DNA of 64,000 nucleotides, from positions 1,180,501 to 1,244,500 of the forward strand of contig NZ_AP022847.1 in the NCBI RefSeq assembly GCF_015100395.1, in the 5' to 3' direction. The position numbers and the translations under genes are program-made. This document shows positions 14,236 to 15,123 of the stretch, piece after piece. The DNA comes from Nitrosophilus alvini (GTDB lineage Bacteria > Campylobacterota > Campylobacteria > Campylobacterales > Nitratiruptoraceae). The notes below the pieces were generated by a model. That model ran no database searches. It worked only from the letters and a program-made list of their open reading frames with translations, and had not been told where the DNA came from. Within the stretch, counting starts at the first letter, position 1. Each line of letters starts with the position of its first letter.

Positions 14236-14673
14236 ATGGCCAAATGTTGTCCTATTTCGCAAAGAAGAACCGATTCTTATCTAGAACGCATCGAAGCTTT
14301 CATAACAGCTGCGATTGTAACCATATTTGTTATGACCTGCTCTTTTGTAATGCCTCTGCTTTTGGCAATCGATTTTCTTCTGAAACTGGCCACACAAAAC
14401 AGATACGGAATTTTCAGACCTCTGTCAAAAAAATGCAAAGAGGTCCTTAAGTTGCCGCAAAAATCCGTTGACGACGCTCCTAAAAAATTTGCAAGAGTTT
14501 TAGGTATGATAATGTCTTTCAATCTTGTAGTTTTATATATATTCAATCTGCATATACCCGCAGTAATATTGTCATGTATATTCATAACATTTGCTCTGCT
14601 TGAAGCTTTCTTCGACTACTGTATAGGCTGCAAAATATATACTGCACTAAAAAAAGCTTCAACTAAACCTTAA
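14236..14673 (+). CDS. DUF4395-like membrane protein
   Basis: This 145-residue protein has a Cys-Cys near the N-terminus (AKCCPIS), hydrophobic segments at about 22-45 and 95-130, and a C-terminal FDYCIGCKIY motif. This layout resembles DUF4395 membrane proteins, whose function is unknown. I chose the ATG with ACAGGAG seven bases upstream; the frame is open 14 codons further but has no ribosome site there. The paired cysteines at both ends might act as a thiol or metal pair at the membrane, which is speculation. It stands alone between divergent and downstream single genes. Confidence 0.7.
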   Translation: MAKCCPISQRRTDSYLERIEAFITAAIVTIFVMTCSFVMPLLLAIDFLLKLATQNRYGIFRPLSKKCKEVLKLPQKSVDDAPKKFARVLGMIMSFNLVVLYIFNLHIPAVILSCIFITFALLEAFFDYCIGCKIYTALKKASTKP

Positions 14674-14701: not shown

Positions 14702-14726
14702 AAATAGGACTATTTTTGTCCTATTT
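14702..14726. repeat. Perfect palindrome, copy 1 (AAATAGGAC / GTCCTATTT)
   Basis: Two 9-base arms are separated by 7 bases, about 30 bases after the DUF4395 stop. It may act as that gene's terminator, although no long T-run follows. A near-identical copy with the same spacing lies 162 bases downstream, which argues for a protein-binding site. Confidence 0.7.
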
Positions 14727-14784
14727 ATTTTCTGTATTCCCCAGTTTTTCGTCCTTTTTATACTTGTTGAAAAAAAATTATCAT

Positions 14785-14811
14785 TTGACTGTCTTTGATA
14801 AGATTTATAAT
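14785..14811 (+). promoter_or_regulatory. Possible distal promoter upstream of the secreted peptide gene
   Basis: TTGACT and TATAAT are 15 bases apart, slightly short of the usual 16-18. If active it would start near 14818 and place both downstream palindromes inside a leader of about 125 bases. Confidence 0.35.
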
Positions 14812-14847
14812 ATTTTTTTATAAAAAGTAGCAACAAAGCTCCCTAAA

Positions 14848-14865
14848 TTAAAGGATTTCCTTTAA
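14848..14865. repeat. Palindrome TTAAAGGA / TCCTTTAA
   Basis: Two perfect 8-base arms surround a TT centre, with the last two bases overlapping the left arm of the second GTCCTATTT palindrome. It lies about 45 bases before the -10 box at 14902. It could be a second regulator site. Confidence 0.55.
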
Positions 14866-14888
14866 ATAAGACAAATTATGTCCTATTT
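14864..14888. promoter_or_regulatory. Operator-like palindrome, copy 2 (AAATAAGAC / GTCCTATTT)
   Basis: It has the same 9-7-9 layout and right arm as the palindrome at 14702-14726, with one mismatch in the left arm. Its centre is about 38 bases upstream of the predicted transcription start near 14914, where a regulator could touch RNA polymerase. Which protein binds is unknown. Confidence 0.55.
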
Positions 14889-14901
14889 AATATATAGTTG
14901 C

Positions 14902-14907
14902 TATAAT
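14902..14907 (+). promoter_or_regulatory. -10 box of the secreted peptide gene
   Basis: A perfect TATAAT 36 bases before the ATG, giving a leader of about 30 bases that contains AAGGAG. Confidence 0.6.
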
Positions 14908-14943
14908 TCTTTCGTAACAAAAAAAAATCTCAAGGAGAACAAA

Positions 14944-15123
14944 ATGAGAAAGACACTACTTGCATTTGCAGCATTGGCAACAGCACTATTCGCAAGCGAT
15001 GCGAATCTTAACCCTTACTGGTTCGAAGATGGCGAAAAAGAGACGCTAAACAGCACTGAGGTCTACTCTGAGTACAACCCTCAAACTGACATCAACGTTT
15101 ACGCTTTCCAAGAAGAGAAGTAA
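14944..15123 (+). CDS. Small secreted acidic protein, unknown function
   Basis: This 59-residue protein has a textbook signal peptide (MRKTLLAFAALATALFAS, cleavage expected near residue 18). The mature part of about 40 residues is acidic and rich in Asn, Glu, Asp and Tyr, and has no cysteine. The start is fixed by AAGGAG eight bases upstream; the upstream in-frame ATG at 14878 lies before the predicted transcription start and lacks a ribosome site. I recognise no family. The gene sits alone, has two possible promoters and three palindromes upstream, and is followed by an 11-base-pair hairpin, so it appears to be an independently controlled unit. Confidence 0.7.
   Translation: MRKTLLAFAALATALFASDANLNPYWFEDGEKETLNSTEVYSEYNPQTDINVYAFQEEK

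Follow-up and report, generated by a model that had tools for sequence, protein, structure and literature searches.

Several members of the Rrf2 fold family sense iron-sulfur (Fe-S) clusters. IscR of Escherichia coli and Pseudomonas aeruginosa has the cluster ligands C92, C98, C104, and H107, contacts DNA through Glu43, and is encoded by the first gene of the isc/suf operon. NsrR and RirA, likewise Fe-S sensors of the Rrf2 family, each conserve three cysteines, and PMC9973013 presents RisR of Myxococcus xanthus as a regulator of Fe-S assembly outside the enterobacterial scheme. For the Campylobacterota, which are prominent at hydrothermal vents and include major pathogens, the literature searched describes no Fe-S-cluster regulator.

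Here we analyze a 64-kb stretch of the Nitrosophilus alvini genome (contig NZ_AP022847.1, positions 1,180,501 to 1,244,500; hereafter the window), in which two matched palindromes lie upstream of a gene for a small secreted peptide. These palindromes are very probably operators of a conserved, Fe-S-sensing Rrf2-family repressor whose predicted regulon includes the peptide. The candidate regulator, Rrf2-A, is encoded outside the window; all other coordinates below are window positions.

14236-14673: DUF4395 gene, directly before site A
14702..14726, no strand assigned: operator A (distal), AAATAGGAC-TATTTTT-GTCCTATTT, a perfect 9-7-9 palindrome and predicted Rrf2-A site
14864..14888, no strand assigned: operator B (proximal), AAATAAGAC-AAATTAT-GTCCTATTT, predicted Rrf2-A binding site
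14899..14907, + strand: extended -10 sequence TGCTATAAT (hexamer 14902-14907), predicted peptide promoter
14932..14937, + strand: Shine-Dalgarno sequence AAGGAG
14944..15123, + strand: open reading frame for the 59-aa secreted peptide with a signal-peptide-like start, predicted regulon member
G000:C1:1155131-1155532, ~25 kb before the window: Rrf2-A, 133 aa, Rrf2-family match

Both palindromes lie where an earlier note on this DNA had read them. A joint pattern allowing three or fewer mismatches on both strands matches sites A and B and nothing else in the 64-kb window, giving four matches against 0.26 expected, a count reached in 0 of 100 shuffles. The note had also set the second site near -38 of a TATAAT promoter, and the center of site B indeed falls 26 bp upstream of the -10, with transcription probably starting at ~14914; site and distance are identical in four further genomes (G001, G003, G005, G007).

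For the 1.81-Mb genome, the search pattern was built from the two window sites alone, again with up to three mismatches, and the reversed pattern served as control. It returned eight forward and nine reverse matches, compared with two and three for the control. Six further copies, judged palindromic on inspection, are intergenic and lie upstream of nifS, tpx, thiC, mrp, napA, and a desulfoferrodoxin-like superoxide reductase gene; the other four pattern matches fall within genes. A sequence-only site model, trained on the genome's own and sister-genus sites so that its ranking is partly circular, places site B first in the genome (29.4 bits), site A second (27.8 bits), and the six further sites directly below (21.6-23.8 bits), followed by the Rrf2-A gene itself (17 bits), a pyruvate:ferredoxin oxidoreductase-like gene (15.8 bits), and weaker places. 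Part of the target-gene names were assigned by reading of the sequences.

The site is present in 22 of 22 genomes of the family, where the sites fetched lie upstream of superoxide reductase, sufB, mrp, thiC, nifS, nfu, tpx, thiG, and ferredoxin-like genes; in many other families of the order it precedes sufB, nifS, mrp, superoxide reductase, tpx, and napA. The search of genome and relatives for spaced half-site pairs, which the note had proposed, places the intergenic copies just before Fe-S and oxidative-stress genes of a predicted, conserved regulon, and it supports the note's reading of the palindromes as sites through which a dimeric regulator would control the peptide gene. Judged by these placements, the site is a predicted mark of an Fe-S and oxidative-stress regulon across the order and not a peptide-specific switch. 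Genus g3 shows tandem operators ~34 bp apart at sufB (L163, L166, L167, L169, L174, L177, L183), a gene that in some of its genomes diverges from a UbiD-like gene.

The N. alvini genome encodes two full Rrf2 proteins, Rrf2-A and the CymR-like Rrf2-B. Rrf2-A clearly belongs to the superfamily (TIGR00738, 112 bits against a cut-off of 73.3; PF02082, 104.9 against 30), and its gene lies between rpsO and a DHH-like gene. Residues C91, C98, C106, and Ala41 are invariant among 13 aligned orthologues; the three cysteines are the predicted ligands of an Fe-S cluster. With IscR it shares the fold family and a three-cysteine set; the sites resemble IscR type 1 sites in their 25-bp length and in the register of the GAC-N7-GTC core (ATASYYGACTRWWWYAGTCRRSTAT, PMC6599224), and they lie, as IscR sites do, at Fe-S assembly, nfu, and tpx genes and at the regulator's own promoter. 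In contrast, Rrf2-A scores only 68.7 bits against the TIGR02010 equivalog cut-off of 207.55, spaces its cysteines x6/x7 rather than x5/x5, lacks a histidine at the H107 position (tryptophan in most), carries Ala41 where IscR has its DNA-contacting Glu43, and adjoins rpsO instead of heading an isc/suf operon. The outer half-site is TAG here and SYY in IscR, positions 4-6 differ, and sites also lie at superoxide reductase and secreted-peptide genes. Within the operator core, GAT and GAG variants are common. By curated cut-off, ligands, and gene context, Rrf2-A is a protein other than IscR.

Scores likewise set Rrf2-A apart from NsrR (38.0 bits against a cut-off of 182) and RirA (42.7 against 193), and no NO-detoxification or iron-uptake genes, in contrast to NsrR and RirA, were seen among the site-bearing targets. 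RisR belongs to another phylum, and its likeness to Rrf2-A is one of described role. Rrf2-B, of the same family, is encoded within a methionine/cysteine gene cluster; it is without the three cysteines and has a glutamate at the Ala41 position. An Rrf2 Fe-S regulon is in itself of an ordinary kind; its lineage and protein subgroup are new as far as the literature searched shows.

In the mechanism we propose, AAATAGGAY-N7-RTCCTATTT would be the target of a cluster-bound Rrf2-A dimer, which would act as a repressor by sitting over the -35, the spacer, the -10, or the transcript start. Cluster loss, through oxidative stress or iron shortage, would release Rrf2-A and thereby induce the genes of Fe-S assembly (sufB, nifS, nfu, mrp), of detoxification (superoxide reductase, thiol peroxidase), and of some Fe-S enzymes (thiC, napA), as well as, by release at site B, that of the secreted peptide. 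We infer that Rrf2-A contacts the DNA and holds a cluster, and likewise which sign the regulation has and what signal induces the genes. Repression appears to fit the site positions better than activation, because of where the sites fall: at tpx and sufB they occupy the spacer beside the -10, at rrf2 they cover the -10, at nifS, mrp, nfu, and thiG they abut the ribosome-binding site, and at the peptide genes of families f7 and f17 they lie downstream of the likely -10.

For the peptide and superoxide reductase genes, a site centered near -38 of the promoter is compatible with either sign. Rrf2-A could there contact polymerase and activate promoters that have no good -35, as apo-IscR does at E. 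coli suf. Such an activator would suit the absence of a clear -35 from both promoters and the distance from site center to -10, which is fixed at 26 bp for the peptide in five genomes and is 27-28 bp for superoxide reductase; moreover, E. coli IscR can both repress and activate (PMC12594620). We nevertheless regard activation as unlikely, given that repression is the natural reading where the site lies downstream of the likely -10, as at the f7 peptide homologues and f17 small peptides, and that P. aeruginosa IscR represses nfuA and tpx from type 1 sites over the -35 (PMC6599224). Distances of 5, 16-17, and 26-28 bp hinted that site and -10 keep a constant helical phase, a reading that was rejected, as other promoters, at 33-75 bp, do not fit it.

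Assignment of the sites to Rrf2-A is supported by the distribution of both across the order. Among 150 genomes drawn from it, 127 encode an Rrf2-A orthologue; sites occur in 84 of these 127 and in one of the 23 without it (Fisher p = 1.4e-8, a statistic that ignores shared ancestry). The assembly of the lone site-bearing genome without the gene is 82% complete, and its genus-mate carries the gene. The other 43 Rrf2-A genomes, family f11 included, have no site above threshold, through either motif drift or a strict threshold, and in f11 the operator may have changed. At one f11 locus (L121), likewise with no site above threshold, Rrf2-A lies between rpsO and a flhA-like gene. Rrf2-A also carries a site in its own promoter, where it overlaps the -10 in four genomes (G000, G001, G003, G005), the degenerate half being the -10 itself. 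Co-occurrence and the promoter site bear out the earlier suggestion of an Rrf2-like regulator.

Peroxide and superoxide genes are classic PerR targets. The sites might accordingly belong to a PerR/Fur-type or CymR-like protein co-inherited with Rrf2-A by chance, and a Fur-family-like gene does lie near the sister-genus peptide locus. Such a substitution seems improbable in view of the co-occurrence, the site in the Rrf2-A promoter, and the 25-bp GAC-N7-GTC architecture; in addition, one genome (G022) with other Rrf2 matches lacks both Rrf2-A and the sites. Since its matches include a CymR-like one, Rrf2-B was rejected as the regulator.

Site A lies 29 bp past the DUF4395 stop and was flagged as terminator-like, so that it could be a mere weak terminator hairpin of that upstream gene with no regulatory role; with G-C in only three of nine pairs, a poor T-run, and a fit to the operator at 18 of 18 arm positions, this is quite improbable. 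A GTCCTATTT half-site within the start of this same gene was dismissed as coincidental, because it there encodes the CPIS motif of other DUF4395-like proteins. A DUF4395-like gene at another locus (L078, G024) likewise has an operator, with one mismatch, overlapping its start region.

Joint action of the twin sites through DNA looping, which the earlier note had raised and for which two strong sites 162 bp apart and the twin sites at an f4 small-peptide gene (70 bp) and at g3 sufB (34 bp) might speak, is very improbable, because neither the doubling of the site nor the 162-bp distance is conserved, the sister genus lacks the pair, and the spacings (15.4, 6.7, and 3.2 helical turns) are out of phase. 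Under repression by Rrf2-A, site A would most likely provide extra occupancy and not a fixed loop.

Of the matched pair that the note had expected upstream of peptide homologues, the single promoter-proximal site is conserved and the pair is not. The sister genus keeps the proximal site upstream of the peptide gene; at its four homologues only one strong site was seen within ~1.5 kb of that gene, and operator A is not conserved upstream of these homologues. There the peptide gene diverges from a gene for an HtrA-like protease, and one site is common to both. The 59-aa peptide carries the motif NPYWFEDGEKE and a degenerate second copy, NVYAFQEEK, and its homologues have NPYWF[QE][ED]G or close variants in common; neither it nor the homologues tested match any Pfam or NCBIfam family above cut-off. 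Scanning contigs with the peptide family returned three loci. In genus g25 of family f7, three of four peptide homologues, found by protein alone, have a site ~45 bp upstream, with a chance per case of 0.0004 to 0.017. Other NPYWFQE peptides of the own family, f1, at different loci (L024, L011/L012, L025), are without the site. At L213 (G236), an operator lies between an NPYWFEE peptide gene and a divergent gene resembling one for high-potential iron-sulfur protein, which is followed by a hemerythrin-like gene.

A secreted-peptide branch of an Fe-S regulon is unexpected, and its predicted link to Fe-S or oxidative stress gives a first functional handle on secreted peptides outside known families. 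Site, regulator, and conserved target list together make the regulon directly testable. A wider reading, which we put forward tentatively, is that a distinct Campylobacterota Rrf2 Fe-S regulator counts among its most strongly marked targets small secreted peptides with aromatic-acidic motifs (NPYWFQE in f1 and f7, VHYD in f4 and f17) that several families have recruited. These peptides might form an unrecognized periplasmic arm of the Fe-S and oxidative-stress response, and they might bind iron or work together with the neighboring HtrA-like protease.

In f17 (L224, L226, L227, L230, L310, L311) and f4 (L243, L294), secreted peptides of 43-69 aa are encoded directly behind operators, several of which are top-scoring; one f4 gene has the two sites mentioned above. 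These peptides carry one to three VHYD-type motifs and look unrelated to the NPYWF peptides; of those compared with Pfam and NCBIfam, none reaches the cut-off of any family. Four of the f17 peptide promoters (L224, L226, L227, L230) have, upstream of their -10, an FNR/CRP-like palindrome, TTGATATATATCAA, which suggests a second regulator.
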